Below are positions 50,547-59,896 of a DNA stretch of 64,000 nucleotides, piece by piece. The notes beneath the pieces are model-generated. The model saw only the letters and a list, made by a program, of their open reading frames with translations, had not been told where the DNA came from and made no database searches. How positions within the stretch are numbered: the first letter of the stretch is position 1; each line of letters starts with the position of its first letter. Made by a program: the position numbers and the translations under genes. Origin of the DNA: Natronorubrum thiooxidans (lineage in GTDB: Archaea > Halobacteriota > Halobacteria > Halobacteriales > Natrialbaceae); contig NZ_FTNR01000003.1 in NCBI RefSeq assembly GCF_900156475.1, positions 124,001 through 188,000 on the forward strand, given 5' to 3'.

Positions 50547-52458
<1,912 letters not shown>

Positions 52459-52570
52459 GCTCGAAACACCCCTATCGGATTCATACGGGTTTCTGCGAGG
52501 ACCAACAGGAAAAGGATTCCGTAACTCTTTCACGATTAATAACCGGACGAGGGGGAACTGATAGCAGGGG

Positions 52571-52579
52571 TATAAAAAG
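52571..52579 (+). promoter_or_regulatory. TATA element of the NSS transporter
   Basis: TATAAAAAG about 33-41 bases before ATG 52612, implying a leader of roughly 10-15 bases. A short G-run (GGGGG at 52605-52609) lies just before the start and may act as a weak ribosome-binding site. Confidence 0.5.
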
Positions 52580-52611
52580 TTATATCTGACCGCTCTTTTA
52601 ATCAGGGGGAT

Positions 52612-54009
52612 ATGGTGCAACGCGAGACATGGGCAACAAGAACAGGCTTTATTCTGGCTGCGGTCGGGAGTGCAGTCGGGTTGGGGAACATCTGGCGATT
52701 CCCGTTCGTTACGGGTGAAGGTGGTGGATCGGCGTTTCTGTTGGTCTATCTCCTTTTCGTGGCACTGATCGGGTTTCCGGCGATTCTGGCGGAGTTCGTC
52801 GTCGGCCGCAAAACCGAACGGAACCCGGTCGGCGCGTTGATGGAACTGGGCGGTAACACGTGGAAATACGTCGGTGGTGTCTTCATCGTCACCGGGTTCG
52901 TTATTCTCTCGTACTACAGTGTCGTCGCAGGGTGGTTCATTCGGTACTTCCTCGAGGGCTTCCGCGGCAGCTACGGGACCCTCCTCGCGGGACACGAAAG
53001 TGCCGCAGCCGAAGCCGGAGTACCAGCGGCCGCGGTCCTGTTTGGCGAACTGTCGACCGGGCTCGACGCCTTCGTCTTCCACACGCTGTTTATGGCAGTG
53101 ACGATTGGCGTCGTCGCACTCGGCATCCGACGCGGGATCGAACTCGCAGTGAAGGTGATGGTGCCGGCGATCCTCATCTTGCTCGTTGGGATGGCTCTCT
53201 GGGCGTTTACGCTTCCCGACGCTGGTGCCGGCTACGAATACTACCTCTCGCCGGAGTTCGGCGTGATCGCCGACAACTGGGCGACGTTGCTGCCAGCCGC
53301 CGCCGGACAGGCGTTCTTTACCCTCTCGCTTGGGATGGGTGTGATGATCACCTACGCGTCCTATCTCGGTGAAGACCGTAACCTGACCAAAGACGGACTC
53401 ACCATCATCGGCTTCGACACCGGAATCGCGTTCTTGACCGGGTTAGTCGTCTTCCCCGTCTTCTTTGCGGCAGGGATCACTGAGCCGGGTGAGGGTGGTG
53501 CCGGTGCGATCTTCGTCTCGATGACCGAGGCGTTTGCGACCATCGGTGGCGGCCACATCCTTGGCTTGCTCTTTTTCGGCACTGTCGCGATCGCAGCACT
53601 CTCGAGTGCCATCTCGCTGCTCGAGGTCGTGACGGCGTACGTCATCGACGAGAAAGGCGTCGAGCGATGGAAAGCAGCACTCGGTATGGGCGGAATTATC
53701 TACCTGCTGGGAGTGCCAGTCACCTACGATCTGATCTTCCTCGACCTGCTCGATGGTTTCGCCGACGGCATCCTGCTGGTGTTCGGTGCGCTCATGCTAG
53801 TGATCCTCGTCGGCTGGATCACACCGAAAATCGCCATCGAAGAACTCGAGAAAGGAATCGGTAACCTCGGCGGACTCGGGACGGCCTGGATCTGGGCGAT
53901 TCGTGTGCCGATCCTCATCGTCCTCGTCGTCACGCTGTATCTGGGTGTCGAGGGCTACGTCGAATTCCTCAGCAGCGACTTCGCTGACTGGATCGGCGCG
54001 AACCTGTAA
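52612..54009 (+). CDS. Sodium-dependent transporter (NSS/SNF family)
   Basis: A 465-residue secondary transporter with the LeuT fold. The first helix has the NSS signature [20 protein letters not shown], where Gly and Asn bind sodium and substrate, followed by [13 protein letters not shown]. About twelve helices are visible. LeuT-like members import amino acids using the sodium gradient; the substrate cannot be named. It is the last intact gene before the rearranged ABC transporter region. Confidence 0.93.
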
Positions 54010-54034
54010 CGGACGACGACTCTTTTCGCGATTG

Positions 54035-54235
54035 TCACGTCTCGGCGTAGACGGGCACCGCAGCACCGCTTGTCACTGCTGTGCCGTCGCTACAGAGGAC
54101 GGCAAGCATATCCGCGATCTCGGCCGGCTCAACCCACGAGTTGTGATCCGCGTTGGCATCATGGAATACGGTGGCTCCCTCTCGGAGGACTGCATCCCAT
54201 GGTTGAGCGACAGATAAAACGGTCATAGAGCACAC
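54035..54235 (-). pseudogene. SDR 3'-end remnant, a partial copy of the gene at 60117-60839
   Basis: The last 36 or so residues (NSWVEPAEIADMLAVLCSDG, then AVTSGAAVPVY) match the C-terminus of the SDR encoded at 60117-60839. In bases, 54047-54162 aligns with 60129-60245; I count nine differences in 107 positions compared, and a one-base deletion in the remnant (ATGCCAACG against ATGCCCGACG) that shifts frame. Upstream of this the similarity stops, so the catalytic and cofactor domains are absent. It is a non-functional duplicate, and lies on the same strand as the parent. Confidence 0.85.
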
Positions 54236-54399
54236 GACGTTACGGCTGTTTCTTTCCGCCTGGTCTCATCGAAACGGTGTGGCTCTACGGTAGCGATTGC
54301 ACGATTTCTCCACATGTGGTCGTATCGTGCCATGGCGATACGAAGTCGAGACGGTATCCTGTCCGATACCGTATCAATATAGATACTGTTCGGGAAAGG

Positions 54400-54407
54400 T
54401 ATATATA
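54400..54407 (+). promoter_or_regulatory. TATA element of the solute-binding protein gene
   Basis: TATATATA preceded by a purine-rich BRE-like GGGAAAGG. It lies 23-30 bases before ATG 54430, supporting that start and a leaderless transcript. Confidence 0.7.
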
Positions 54408-54429
54408 GAAGACATTGCCACAATTACCC

Positions 54430-55707
54430 ATGGTGCAGAGACTCAATCGAAGACGTGTTCTCGGCGGTATCGGTGCGACAGGTGTTGTTGGCCTCGCCGG
54501 CTGTATCGGGGATGAGGGCGACGTTGAGTCCGGGGGACCGGACGTCCTGAACATCATTGGCTACCCGGAGAGCGGAATTCAGATCTTCCGTGATTTCTAC
54601 TCCGACTTCGACAACGGAACCGAGATCATCGTACCTGACGGGATGCAAGATGGGGACCTTCCGAACGAAGTCGGCAACGAAATGGCAAACGTTACCGGGA
54701 CGGGACCGTCCTCGGACGGCCCGAACGAAGACGCGTACACCGACCTCTACGAGGACGAGTACGACGAAGCCCCAGGAGTTTTCACCGCGCACACGTTCGA
54801 CGCCGTTGCCGTGTGCATCCTGGCGAACATCGCGGCCGGCGAGAACGACGGCGAAGCGATCCGCGGCCAGATGCGACGGATCGCAAACCCCGAGGGCGAC
54901 GAGTATGGACCGGGCGAACTCGAGGACGCAGCCGCAGCGGCTGCCGACGGCGAAAACATCAACTATCAGGGGGCCTCGAGCACGGTCGACTTCGACGACG
55001 TTGGCGATCCAGCGGAGGCAGCCTACGACGTCTGGGAGTTCGACGACGGTATCGAAACGGTCGATACGGTCACGTTCGAAGGATCGGAGCCCGGCGGCGA
55101 GATGGACGACGACGCCCCCGGCGGAACGGACCGCGACGACGTGATGGTCTCGATGTTGCTCCCGGAGACGGGTGACCTGGGACAACTCGGAACACCGATG
55201 GCCCAAGCGGGCGAACTCGCAGCAGACCAGTTCGCCGGGACCGATTTCGACATCGATCTGCAGGCCGAGGACACCGAGACGGACGAGGACACCACCATCA
55301 GTAACGGCGGTGCCCTCATCGACGCCGGCTACCCGACGATCGTCGGCGCAGGTTCGTCCGGTAACACCGTCTCCTTCGTCGGGAACAGCAGCAGTGCAAA
55401 CGTCGTTCAATGTTCGCCATCCAGTACGGCGCTCAGCCTCTCGAATATCGACGACGACGGCTACTTCTTCCGGACTGCTCCCAGCGACCTGTTGCAGGGG
55501 CAGGTCATGGCCGAAGTCGCAGCGAGCCGCCTCGAGGCGGACACGGTCGCGACGCTGTACGTCAACAACGACTACGGCCAGCAACTGTCTGAGCAGTTCG
55601 TCGACGCATTCGAAGAGGAGCAAGGTGGCGAAGGACTCAACCAGGTCTCCTTCGAATCCGAACAGGGGTCATACAGCGGCGAGCTCGAGTCCGCGCTGTC
55701 GGACTGA
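54430..55707 (+). CDS. ABC solute-binding lipoprotein with circularly permuted halves
   Basis: A 425-residue binding lipoprotein of the branched-chain amino acid (Peripla_BP_6) type. MVQRLNRRRVLGGIGATGVV and GLAGC give a twin-arginine leader and lipid Cys25. Residues 37-215 (PDVLNIIGYPESGIQIFRDF through YDVWEFDDGIETVDTVTF) are the half that normally comes last. A linker, 216-236, leads to residues 237-425 (DVMVSMLLPETGDLGQLGTP through GSYSGELESALSD), which normally come first, directly after the lipobox. The order is therefore swapped while the leader stays in front. Both halves seem complete and without stops, so it may fold as a permuted protein. Its ABC partners are on the opposite strand. 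Confidence 0.83.
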   Translation: MVQRLNRRRVLGGIGATGVVGLAGCIGDEGDVESGGPDVLNIIGYPESGIQIFRDFYSDFDNGTEIIVPDGMQDGDLPNEVGNEMANVTGTGPSSDGPNEDAYTDLYEDEYDEAPGVFTAHTFDAVAVCILANIAAGENDGEAIRGQMRRIANPEGDEYGPGELEDAAAAAADGENINYQGASSTVDFDDVGDPAEAAYDVWEFDDGIETVDTVTFEGSEPGGEMDDDAPGGTDRDDVMVSMLLPETGDLGQLGTPMAQAGELAADQFAGTDFDIDLQAEDTETDEDTTISNGGALIDAGYPTIVGAGSSGNTVSFVGNSSSANVVQCSPSSTALSLSNIDDDGYFFRTAPSDLLQGQVMAEVAASRLEADTVATLYVNNDYGQQLSEQFVDAFEEEQGGEGLNQVSFESEQGSYSGELESALSD

Positions 55708-55945
55708 GCGGCGATCGAACCCCGATCCGATTTTTGACTGGTATCGTCTCTCTCGAGTCATAGTCACCGCCGTTCGTCTGATTCCGAGACGATCGGAGTG
55801 ATAGACCACAGGGCGGCGGCGCGCGCACGAACCCATGGTGGGGAAAGCGAGTTCCGAGTTAAACCGTTCGCGCGAGCGCTCAGTGAGCGAGCGCGCGCTA
55901 CGCGGCGCGAAAAAACGAATCAGGTTCTGCCGGATCGAGGACGTG

Positions 55946-56650
55946 CTAGCCGCCGAGGAACTGCTGGCGGACCTCCTCGTCGTTCAATAGAGCGTCGCCG
56001 GAGTCGACGTACCGGTTCTGGCCCTGGACGAGTACGTATCCCCGGTCACACCGACGAAGGGCTTCCTTCGCGTTCTGTTCGACGACGAGCAACGCGGTCC
56101 CGTTGTCGTTGATCGCGTCGACGTGATCGAACATCTCGTCCACCAGATCCGGCGCGAGGCCGGCGCTCGGTTCGTCGAGCAACAGAAGGTCCGGATCGAG
56201 CATCAGCGCTCGCCCCATCGCGACCATCTGCTGTTGGCCGCCGCTCATCGAGCCAGCTTTCTGGTCCTTGCGCTCACGCAGGATAGGAAACTGATCGTAG
56301 ACGCTCTCGAGGGCCGCCTCGGGTACCTCGTCCAAGATGTACGCCCCCATCTCGAGGTTCTCCTCGACCGTCAACGAGGGAAAGACGTTGTCGTTCTGGG
56401 GGACGTAACCGATTCCCTGGTGGATGATTTCGTCGGGCGTCCGACCGGTTATCTCCTCGTCCCGGAACTCGATCAAGCCGCCCATGTACGTTGTCAGCCC
56501 GAAGACGGACTTCATCGCCGTCGACTTCCCCGCTCCGTTGGGGCCGACGATGACGACGTACTCTTCTTTGGCCACCTCGAGGTCGACGTCGCTCAGGATC
56601 TGCAGGTCGCCGTACCCCGCGTCGAGGCCGCTGACGTCGAGCATCGACAT
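55946..56650 (-). CDS. livF: Branched-chain amino acid-type ABC transporter ATP-binding protein LivF
   Basis: One of two ATPases of the transporter. The 234 residues have Walker A GPNGAGKST, the signature MSGGQQQM (Met where LivF usually has Leu), Walker B LLLLDEP, and the switch His replaced by Gln (LLVVEQNAKEAL), normal for LivF. The C-terminal YVDSGDALLNDEEVRQQFLG is typical. Its start overlaps the stop of livG by one base. It is last in the livHMGF operon, converging on the solute-binding protein gene. Confidence 0.95.
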   Translation of the reverse strand: MSMLDVSGLDAGYGDLQILSDVDLEVAKEEYVVIVGPNGAGKSTAMKSVFGLTTYMGGLIEFRDEEITGRTPDEIIHQGIGYVPQNDNVFPSLTVEENLEMGAYILDEVPEAALESVYDQFPILRERKDQKAGSMSGGQQQMVAMGRALMLDPDLLLLDEPSAGLAPDLVDEMFDHVDAINDNGTALLVVEQNAKEALRRCDRGYVLVQGQNRYVDSGDALLNDEEVRQQFLGG

Positions 56651-57477
56651 CAGACGTCACCTCCGAGGTACGCCTCGATGACTTGCTCGTTCGAGGTGAT
56701 CGTTTCGGGGTTCCCTTCTGCCAGCACCGATCCCTGATGCATCACGATGACGCGTTCGCAGTTTTCCATGATAAGGTCCATGTCGTGTTCGACGATGAGG
56801 AACGTGTACCCCTCCTCGCGGAGTTCGTGGATGTGGTCGAGGAGTTTGTGCTCGAGCGTTGGATTGACGCCAGCGAACGGTTCGTCGAGCAACAGCATCT
56901 CCGGTTCGATCATCAGCGCCCGCGCCATCTCGAGCAGTTTCCGCTGGCCGCCCGAGAGGTTGCCCGCCTTCTCTTCGGCGATATGTTCGATCTCGAAGAA
57001 CTCGAGGATGTCCCACACCCGTTCGAGCAGTTCACGCTCCTCCTCGATGACGTCCCGCCGGGCAAACGGCATCACCGACCGCCACAGTTGTTCGCCTGAC
57101 TGCTGTTTCGCCGGCAGCATCAGATTCTCGAGGACGGTCATGTTGGCCATCTCGCGGGCGATCTGGAAGGTTCGGACGAGCCCGTAGTCGGCACACTGAT
57201 AGGGCCTGATACCGGTAATATCGTTTCCCTGGAACCGGACCGAGCCGCCATCCGGCCGGTGGATACCGGTGATGCAGTGGAACGTCGTCGATTTCCCGGC
57301 ACCGTTCGGACCGATCAGTCCGGTCATCGACCCCGATTCGACCTCGAAGCTCGCGCTGTCGACGGCCGTAATCCCGCCAAAGCGCTTGACGAGTCCGTCG
57401 ACTTTCAGTTCGACGTCGTTCTGTTGTCCCTCCGGTTGGACGGTATCGCTTTGGGATCCGATTTCGGTGTCGCTCAC
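56650..57477 (-). CDS. livG: Branched-chain amino acid-type ABC transporter ATP-binding protein LivG
   Basis: The second ATPase, 275 residues, with Walker A GPNGAGKST, signature NLSGGQRKLLEMARALM, Walker B MLLLDEPFAGVNP and switch His in FLIVEHDMDLIM. An N-terminal extension (about 20 residues) is polar and disordered. The loop CADYGLVRTFQIAREMANMT is the LivG Q-loop region. Its start overlaps the end of livM by four bases. It pairs with LivF beneath the LivHM channel. Confidence 0.95.
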   Translation of the reverse strand: MSDTEIGSQSDTVQPEGQQNDVELKVDGLVKRFGGITAVDSASFEVESGSMTGLIGPNGAGKSTTFHCITGIHRPDGGSVRFQGNDITGIRPYQCADYGLVRTFQIAREMANMTVLENLMLPAKQQSGEQLWRSVMPFARRDVIEEERELLERVWDILEFFEIEHIAEEKAGNLSGGQRKLLEMARALMIEPEMLLLDEPFAGVNPTLEHKLLDHIHELREEGYTFLIVEHDMDLIMENCERVIVMHQGSVLAEGNPETITSNEQVIEAYLGGDV

Positions 57478-58784
57478 GACGAATCACCACCGCGACCGGC
57501 CGTGCTATCGTCGTTCGACCGTCTTATCAACGGAATCGCCGCAGCCGTCTCTTCACGATGGCCGAGTAACCCCTCAGGTCGGCGATGCATGAGGAAGACA
57601 AGCGCGACACCCATCAGGACGAACTGGAGCGTCTGGAACTCTTCGAAGGTGTAGCGCACGAACGGGGCAGTGTTCCCCGAGAGGATCGGTGCGACGGACC
57701 CGGCGAACGTATTCGGCGCGTCGCCGAACGTGATGACCTGTTCGACGAGTCGGCGGAAATACTGTGGTCCCTCGAAGAGGATGGCGACGAACAGCCCTGA
57801 GCCGAGCACGCTGCCGGTGTTCGAGCCTGCGCCACCGATGATCAGCGCGATCCAGATGTAGAAGGTCACGTGCGGCCGGAACGCCTCTGGCGTGACACCC
57901 GTTCGGCGGAATCGCCAGAGAATACCGGCCAGTCCCATCAGCGCACAGCCGAGCACGAACACTTTGATCTTGAAGTGGTTCGTGTTCTTCCCGAGCGATT
58001 GGGCCGCCTCCTCGTCCTCGCGAATCGCCTTCAGCACGCGGCCGAACGGCGACCGACTGGTTCGCTGAATAAGCCAGTATATTCCGGTCAGCACGATCAC
58101 CAGCACCATCGAGTAGGCCAGTGCTCTCGCCTGTCTCGGACCAAACCCGAACAGGCTGTTCGTCAGATCGACGAACGAACTGAACACCTCGAGTTCGAAG
58201 ATCACGTTCATCGGATCACCGTAGTTTCCGATGAGCCCTCGGCCGCCCCCGGTTCCGAGTTCGATGCCGAACAGACTGAACTCCTGTAACGCACCGGAAG
58301 TGATTCCGAGGCGAACGATCTCGGCGAACGCGATAGTCGTGATCGCGAAGTAGTCAGCCCGCAATCGGAGTGCCGGTATCGCCACAATCAGTCCGGCGAG
58401 ACCCGCGGCGACGACGCCGCCGACGATCGCGACCGGCATCGGAAGGCCGAGACCAGCGTACTGTGCCGCACCTGCCGGATCCGTCGGCTTCGCCAGCATC
58501 ATCGTCACGTACAGACCGACTGCCATGAAGCCGGCAATACCGATATTGAAGATGCCGGTGTACCCCCAGTGTAAATTCAACGCCAGCGTTACCATCCCGT
58601 AGACGGCGATCAGGTACGTCATCCGCCGCAGCGTGTTGACGATCCCGTCGAGCGAGTAGCCCAATGCGAGTCCGATCAGGGCGTACGTGAGGTAGATCAC
58701 GCCGAAGATGGCGAGGATTTTGACGGCGTCGTGTTCCCACAGCGTCTCCAGTCGGACTCGAGTGTCCGTGGCGTTCGTACTCAT
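57474..58784 (-). CDS. livM: Branched-chain amino acid-type ABC transporter permease LivM
   Basis: A 436-residue permease with about ten helices. Family segments: LALNLHWGYTGIFNIGIAGF, AIPALRLRADYFAITTIAFA, and the coupling-helix region PFGRVLKAIREDEEAAQSLG, which docks on the ATPases. The C-terminus extends into a cytoplasmic Ser/Asp-rich tail. It overlaps livH at its start and livG at its end by four bases each, giving strict operon structure. Confidence 0.95.
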   Translation of the reverse strand: MSTNATDTRVRLETLWEHDAVKILAIFGVIYLTYALIGLALGYSLDGIVNTLRRMTYLIAVYGMVTLALNLHWGYTGIFNIGIAGFMAVGLYVTMMLAKPTDPAGAAQYAGLGLPMPVAIVGGVVAAGLAGLIVAIPALRLRADYFAITTIAFAEIVRLGITSGALQEFSLFGIELGTGGGRGLIGNYGDPMNVIFELEVFSSFVDLTNSLFGFGPRQARALAYSMVLVIVLTGIYWLIQRTSRSPFGRVLKAIREDEEAAQSLGKNTNHFKIKVFVLGCALMGLAGILWRFRRTGVTPEAFRPHVTFYIWIALIIGGAGSNTGSVLGSGLFVAILFEGPQYFRRLVEQVITFGDAPNTFAGSVAPILSGNTAPFVRYTFEEFQTLQFVLMGVALVFLMHRRPEGLLGHREETAAAIPLIRRSNDDSTAGRGGDSS

Positions 58785-59896
58785 GCTGTCGTCTTCCCTC
58801 CGAAGAGTCCGGCGGGTTTGATCATCAAGACGAGAATCATGATCAGGAACGCCGTAATGGTTGTAAAGTCACCGCCGGGGAGCCACACCATCGAGAGGTG
58901 CATGCTGATCCCGATGGTCAGGCCGCCGAAGATGGCGCCGTAGATCGAGCCAATGCCACCGAGGATCACCGCGGCGAAGATCAACAAGAGGAGCAACCAG
59001 CCGAACTGCCAGTCGATCGTTCCCGTCCACAGCACCATGAGGTAGCCGGCACTGCCAGCCAGCCCACCGCCGATCATCCAGGTCCAGCGGATGATCTGTT
59101 CCGTCGGAATCCCCGTCACGAGCGCCAAGTCCCTGTTGTCCGACATCGCCCGCATCGCTTTCCCGAGTTTCGTCCGCTGGAGCATCAGGTGTACGCCGAG
59201 CATCAGTGCAATGGCCGCGATGATCAACGTGGCGTCGTGAGCATCGACTGAAACCCAGCCGTCAACCAACAGTAAATCCAGCGACGGGAGGTCACCGCTG
59301 GTCGTTCCGCGGGTTCGGTTCGAGTACACGAAGACGATGAGATAACGGAGCGCGAAGGCGACCCCGATGCTGGTGATCAACAGCGGAATCCCCCCCGACC
59401 CGCGCATCGGCTTGTAGGCGATCCGGTCGATTAGATACACGAACAGTGCAGTACCGACACCGGCGACGAGTAATCCTGCCATTATCGCGACCGGTGTCGA
59501 AGTGATCGTGATCTCGAGTTGTGAACCCCCGACACCGCGCTGTGGGCCGACGAGTACCAAGTGACCGAAATTGGCGGTCCCCCAGCCGGCGACAAGATAG
59601 GTAACACCCCACCCGAAAAACGCACCCGACGTCACGTAATCCCCGTGTGCGAAGTTCGCGAAATTGAGGATGCTGTACGTCATCGAGAGCCCGATCCCTG
59701 CGAGCCCGATAATGAGCCCGTAGAGCGTCCCTTCCACCGCGTATCGAGCGACACGCGAGATACTGTACGTTCCATTCAGGATCCCGATAAACAGATCCCC
59801 TAGCAACAGGAACGCGCCGAGTCCGACAACGAGCGTAAGCAACTGCTCAGTGGTCATCCCTCGGCCACGATCGATCACTGTATCAACGGTAGACAT
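58781..59896 (-). CDS. livH: Branched-chain amino acid-type ABC transporter permease LivH
   Basis: A 371-residue permease, first gene of livHMGF. Motifs: LAGIGLSMTYSILNFANFAH (the LivH NFAHGD segment), GSGGIPLLITSIGVAFALRY and the coupling helix KLGKAMRAMSDNRDLALVTG. About eight helices are visible. In haloarchaea these clusters import branched-chain amino acids or related amides and urea-like substrates. The usual upstream solute-binding gene is missing here; it lies at the far end in the opposite orientation. Confidence 0.95.
   Translation of the reverse strand: MSTVDTVIDRGRGMTTEQLLTLVVGLGAFLLLGDLFIGILNGTYSISRVARYAVEGTLYGLIIGLAGIGLSMTYSILNFANFAHGDYVTSGAFFGWGVTYLVAGWGTANFGHLVLVGPQRGVGGSQLEITITSTPVAIMAGLLVAGVGTALFVYLIDRIAYKPMRGSGGIPLLITSIGVAFALRYLIVFVYSNRTRGTTSGDLPSLDLLLVDGWVSVDAHDATLIIAAIALMLGVHLMLQRTKLGKAMRAMSDNRDLALVTGIPTEQIIRWTWMIGGGLAGSAGYLMVLWTGTIDWQFGWLLLLLIFAAVILGGIGSIYGAIFGGLTIGISMHLSMVWLPGGDFTTITAFLIMILVLMIKPAGLFGGKTTA

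Follow-up and report, generated by a model that had tools for sequence, protein, structure and literature searches.

A circularly permuted solute-binding protein beside livFGMH-type transporter genes in haloarchaea

Described systems and the haloarchaeal protein

Tp0684 (MglB-2) of Treponema pallidum is a natural permuted, lipid-anchored Type I (Cluster B) solute-binding protein (SBP) that binds D-glucose and shifts conformation on binding (PMC4990184). Its type is conserved in a clade together with its permease, and its authors, who proposed the designation 'Type Ic / Cluster Bc', also offered a rationale based on anchoring (PMC4990184). It belongs to the sugar-binding MglB family, found in spirochaetes and Gram-positives, and is cut in the N-lobe, whose first three strands now lie at the C-terminus, giving the order 5-4-6-1-2-3 (PMC4990184). 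Engineered biosensor binding proteins (e.g. PMC6335823) are also bilobed and permuted or opened by insertion, but are laboratory-made. The literature searched contains only the engineered cases and Tp0684, such that natural SBP permutations are very rare there; a permuted binding protein of the Peripla_BP_6 family or from archaea is not reported in it, with most subscription papers outside its coverage and an earlier report possible.

The window analysed here, a stretch of 64,000 nucleotides of Natronorubrum thiooxidans (contig NZ_FTNR01000003.1, positions 124,001 to 188,000), encodes a protein that resembles Tp0684 in being a permuted Type I binding protein with a lipid at the new N-terminus, although here lipidation is predicted. 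It differs in belonging to the HAAT/Peripla_BP_6 family and in its cut, which is located in the C-lobe between the second and third strands; the N-lobe cut of the Tp0684 type is not found. The haloarchaeal permutation is independent of the Tp0684 event, and within the literature searched it is a second, independent natural case, in another family, lobe and domain of life than Treponema MglB-2. LivK of Thermotoga maritima (3td9) and LivJ of S. pneumoniae (4gnr) share its family and fold and align with both halves, but unlike the haloarchaeal protein they have the normal order. The normal haloarchaeal siblings (L006, L087, L111 and others) are of the same family with ~50% identity and lie in the same place, convergent to livFGMH, but have the normal order and no internal linker.

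Order of the two halves

The open reading frame (54430–55707) encodes a 425-residue protein with an RR motif, Cys25 and a stop after ELESALSD (residue 425). Its translation agrees exactly with the residues described in an earlier note on this DNA. The leader with lipobox Cys25 is followed by the C-terminal half (37–216), a 19-residue linker and the N-terminal half (236–425; Table 1). The sequence PDVLNIIGYPESG starts at residue 37, VDTVTF closes the C-terminal half at residue 216, and DVMVSMLLPETGDLG starts at residue 237, after the linker. The N-terminus has the features of a Tat lipoprotein, with the RR motif and lipobox Cys in NRRRVLGGIGATGVVGLAGC, and export and lipidation are predicted.

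Table 1. Features of the permuted SBP gene and its convergent transporter genes (window coordinates).
Feature	Coordinates	Strand	Basis or correspondence
Twin-arginine leader with lipobox, aa 1–25 (LAGC, Cys25)	54430..54504	+	Direct reading; RR conserved in relatives
Tether after lipid Cys, aa 26–36, hypervariable in length and sequence	54505..54537	+	
Former C-terminal half, now first, aa 37–216	54538..55077	+	L006 244–425; 3td9 204–329+
Linker between old C- and N-termini, aa 217–235	55078..55134	+	Motif EGxxPxGxxxADxxPGGxxR
Former N-terminal half, now last, aa 236–425	55135..55704	+	L006 52–242; 3td9 16–202
livF-type ABC ATPase, convergent partner	55946..56650	-	ORF; adjoins permuted and normal SBPs
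livG-type ABC ATPase	56650..57477	-	ORF; synteny
livM-type permease	57474..58784	-	ORF; synteny
livH-type permease	58781..59896	-	ORF; synteny

Database comparison recovers the two halves in reversed order. A phmmer search of the PDB aligns residues 237–424 with 3td9 16–202 and residues 36–158 with 3td9 204–329; the first of these 3td9 segments ends where the second begins, and the two matches thus abut in the ordinary protein. A reversed double match is also found to 4gnr, while the normal-order siblings match 3td9 as a single collinear stretch. The claim that the halves are swapped with the export and lipid signal retained is borne out by this double match and by the collinear siblings. Pfam reports two Peripla_BP_6 stretches (the best, 240–420, corresponding to profile positions 4–184; total E 1.8e-20) with a profile score of 74.3 bits (cut-off 31.7), which places both lobes in the family, and NCBIfam gives only a weak LivJ-type match covering one half. 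Family-profile annotation overlooks such a rearrangement. The protein does not have the collinear order of the Peripla_BP_6/HAAT family, in which the N-half precedes the C-half, and its sequence classes it as a permuted variant of this family (LivJ/LivK-type) rather than an ordinary member.

The cut is sharply defined by the ordinary haloarchaeal siblings, in which the halves are joined directly (e.g. L006 ...SVLEEALSN followed by DPDTLMIVGFPESG), and coincides exactly with their ...ALSN/DPD... junction. L006, a sibling with the normal order that belongs to the same genus, has 53% identity (195/371) when aligned in swapped order, as the earlier note had expected of haloarchaeal Peripla_BP_6 lipoproteins; a collinear alignment with ordinary members, which had been set beforehand as the outcome speaking against a permutation, did not hold. 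Seventy columns are conserved at 90% or more in both the permuted and the normal sets, and 69 of the 70 have the same residue in both. The swapped match to L006 is, at the level of sequence, far beyond chance.

Distribution, operon context and origin

The same order is present in two more genomes of the genus at 92% identity (G008, G009). A GTDB genome scan returned 80 loci, and sorting of their open reading frames by the order of the halves gives 67 that are permuted and 36 with the normal order. Some genes recur among the loci, and later analyses used 65 distinct permuted sequences. All permuted frames share the breakpoint, with an ALSD-type end and a GPDVLNxIGYPE-type start, as well as the linker pattern EGxxPxGxxxADxxPGGxxR. 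By a hand count from the match listing, 125 of 292 Halobacteria genomes have a collinear match to the permuted form, and these span 29 genera and seven families. Permuted copies are present in several species of Haloferax (L054, L061, L062). There is no permuted form outside the Halobacteria in a 393-genome phylum sample, where non-haloarchaeal matches are two-piece and those with both pieces listed have the normal order, nor among the plasmid matches listed, which are two-piece with at most 48.5% identity.

The window comes from a draft genome of 62 contigs, which would leave room for a misassembly, or for a recent rearrangement confined to that genome, with a true gene of normal order. However, order, breakpoint and linker are the same in dozens of independent assemblies, including the complete chromosome CP040678.1, and across the 125 genomes, and the probability of such an artefact or single-genome oddity is negligible; it was rejected on these grounds. 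Related genomes, which the earlier note proposed to check for the same order, do have it. The note also held that a permuted binding protein with its export signal would be very unusual; the form is, however, an old variant that is widely retained in the Halobacteria and not a one-genome rarity, and Treponema provides a precedent (PMC4990184).

Several loci depart from the single intact gene. Two permuted copies are in tandem at L041:4815–7619 and two are side by side in G130. The permuted gene is truncated in G074 (C2:2081075–2082154) and has an in-frame TAG in G077 (C1:2821300–2822610), and both are possibly decaying.

The permuted and close normal SBP genes occupy the same place, on the opposite strand and converging on livF-livG-livM-livH (window 55946–59896), and the family trait of being encoded with LivF, LivG, LivM and LivH is present. 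A tree of concatenated LivF/G/M/H proteins contains the same two groups, of 60 permuted (support 0.977) and 26 normal (0.928) operons, and since it splits like the receptor, receptor and transporter have been inherited together. Between the groups, LivF and LivG have no fixed difference, LivM has one as well as a short insert, and LivH has two. Compensation on the transporter side was considered and is almost absent, amounting to the short LivM insert and the three fixed changes.

The close normal version is present in ~78 genomes (a hand count of matches at E up to ~1e-108), and only two genomes (G268, G269) have both forms, versus 33 expected; the hypergeometric P of ~2e-20 for this deficit is overstated because the genomes are related. 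The permuted and close normal versions behave as alternative forms of one uptake system.

The alternation extends to a single genus. Two other genomes of the window's genus (G004, G005) have the normal form beside a pccB-like gene and Natronorubrum texcoconense (L031) has the permuted form there; in the window the pccB-like carboxylase gene is one gene further from the permuted gene than in L031. The operon at the pccB-SBP-livFGMH locus is either normal (L006 and L007, from G005 and G004 respectively) or permuted (L031; window 50908–59896), which looks like an exchange of entire operons at one site within the genus. The pccB-like carboxylase (50908–53082) would fit branched-chain amino-acid breakdown, which is a hint only. 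An SNF-type sodium-coupled transporter gene (window 52612–54009) is directly upstream of the permuted gene on the same strand, a position that is kept in Natrialba and Halopiger relatives and not in others.

A protein tree of the 65 permuted proteins and normal-order sequences, all un-permuted before tree building, needs a single change of order. It groups the permuted proteins as one clade at an SH-aLRT of 95, the outgroup branches being long. This clade adjoins one of normal-order haloarchaeal siblings, with Halanaerobium and others, also of normal order, outside. These relationships suggest that the permutation most likely arose once, and identify the normal order as ancestral and the permuted order as derived. 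Trees built half by half each group the permuted sequences in one clade that no normal sequence enters, weakly supported in the N-half tree (0.52) and moderately in the C-half tree (0.88), from which both halves are taken to come from the same family. Given this modest support, the halves could stem from two distinct paralogues and not from copies of a single gene, but the two half-trees independently group the permuted clade with one and the same clade of normal haloarchaeal sequences, and a two-paralogue origin is unlikely.

Copies of one gene are the starting point of the route proposed in the earlier note, a tandem duplication followed by deletions. In detail, the copies would have fused in frame, after which the first N-half, but not the leader, and the second C-half would have been lost. 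This route is plausible and likely, and is consistent with the origin of both halves in one family and with the tandem copies in L041 and G130. It is a step that we infer, because no duplication intermediate or leftover half-copy was found beside the 65 permuted genes, except for the intact second permuted copy in L041.

Predicted fold and proposed working

Comparison with five relatives gives dN of 0.03–0.26 versus dS of 0.37–1.2 in both halves, indicating purifying selection on each. Motifs of the ligand site are kept in the sequence (S310, S329-x-x-S332-T333, Y382 and D70-G71), and these we take to correspond to the backbone-binding positions Ser79, Ala100/Thr102, Tyr150 and Glu226 of E. 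coli LIVBP. The ligand is probably an amino acid or a related carboxylate. The few damaged members, the truncated G074 gene and the G077 gene with its TAG, would fit a non-functional or degrading fusion remnant, but the selection on both halves, the conserved ligand-site motifs, the conserved operon and the near mutual exclusion with the normal version make this very improbable.

An AlphaFold2 (AF2) model of the permuted protein has a pTM of 0.82 and mean pLDDT of 79, compared to 0.83 and 86.7 for normal sibling L006, and all 25 of its predicted elements map one-to-one on those of L006. Residues 1–34 are disordered in the model and part of the N-lobe (~319–343) is of low confidence. The L006 model superposes on 3td9 with Z 41.5 and rmsd 2.0 over 341 residues, and residues 237–425 of the permuted model superpose on 3td9 4–207 with Z 11.7 and rmsd 2.1 over 181 residues. 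For the permuted model, the matches of the sequential aligners Foldseek and VIA-align are largely confined to the N-half and never take in the whole at once, as expected because the chain is permuted; identity of the whole fold is thus derived from the element-by-element mapping and not from superposition. By prediction, the protein has the bilobed Type I fold (pTM, the 25 elements and the superposed N-half). The cut falls between helix 416–423 and strand 39–43, which are neighbours in L006, and this is presumably after the second strand of the C-lobe, judging from LIVBP-type lobes.

The linker has a pLDDT of ~75–81 in the model and 8 of its 19 positions are at least 90% conserved among permuted relatives, whereas none of the 11 tether positions (26–36) is conserved at 90% in 22 permuted relatives. 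Since it is so much better conserved than the tether, the linker is probably packed on the protein body rather than forming a loose joint. Its length of 19 residues and its conservation could also mean an interface in a domain-swapped dimer, in which two chains exchange halves and a single chain does not close. This is improbable, as AF2, although run on monomers, closes the monomer at the pTM and linker pLDDT given above.

The protein is very probably a functional, membrane-anchored, circularly permuted receptor of a LivFGMH-type (HAAT family) ABC importer. This reading is computational. The conservation, the operon context, the selection on both halves and the predicted fold lend strong support to the suggestion that the permuted protein might be functional. 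The protein would be exported by Tat and lipidated at Cys25, with the tether entering the C-lobe between its second and third strands and not the N-lobe. As in LivJ/LivK, the two lobes would close on the ligand before its delivery to LivHM; the docking faces of LivHM could stay as they are, since the folded surface would be the same. Physically, the only expected change is in the lipid tether, which would now pull on the C-lobe.

It is possible, if rather doubtful, that the permutation is adaptive and that the shift of the anchor to the C-lobe and the fixing of the old termini by a conserved, packed linker alter presentation to LivHM or opening and closing. If so, it would explain displacement of the normal operon by the permuted one in much of the haloarchaea and, together with Treponema MglB-2, would suggest that anchoring repeatedly selects re-wired binding proteins. 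Normal siblings that occupy this locus, some of them within the window's own genus, provide matched natural pairs for a direct test of the effect of permutation on binding, anchoring and transport.

Some permuted proteins have a leader without a lipobox Cys. The second tandem copy in L041 (6330–7619) has a Tat-like leader with GLMGTLQQ in place of the lipobox and may be a non-lipidated secreted receptor. The permuted proteins at L037:4716–6293 (GLTGWVERD) and L038:4974–6326 (GFSGWVKRG) likewise have no lipobox Cys, which suggests that the lipid anchor has been lost in the sub-branch holding them, and these two constitute a natural test of the anchoring idea.
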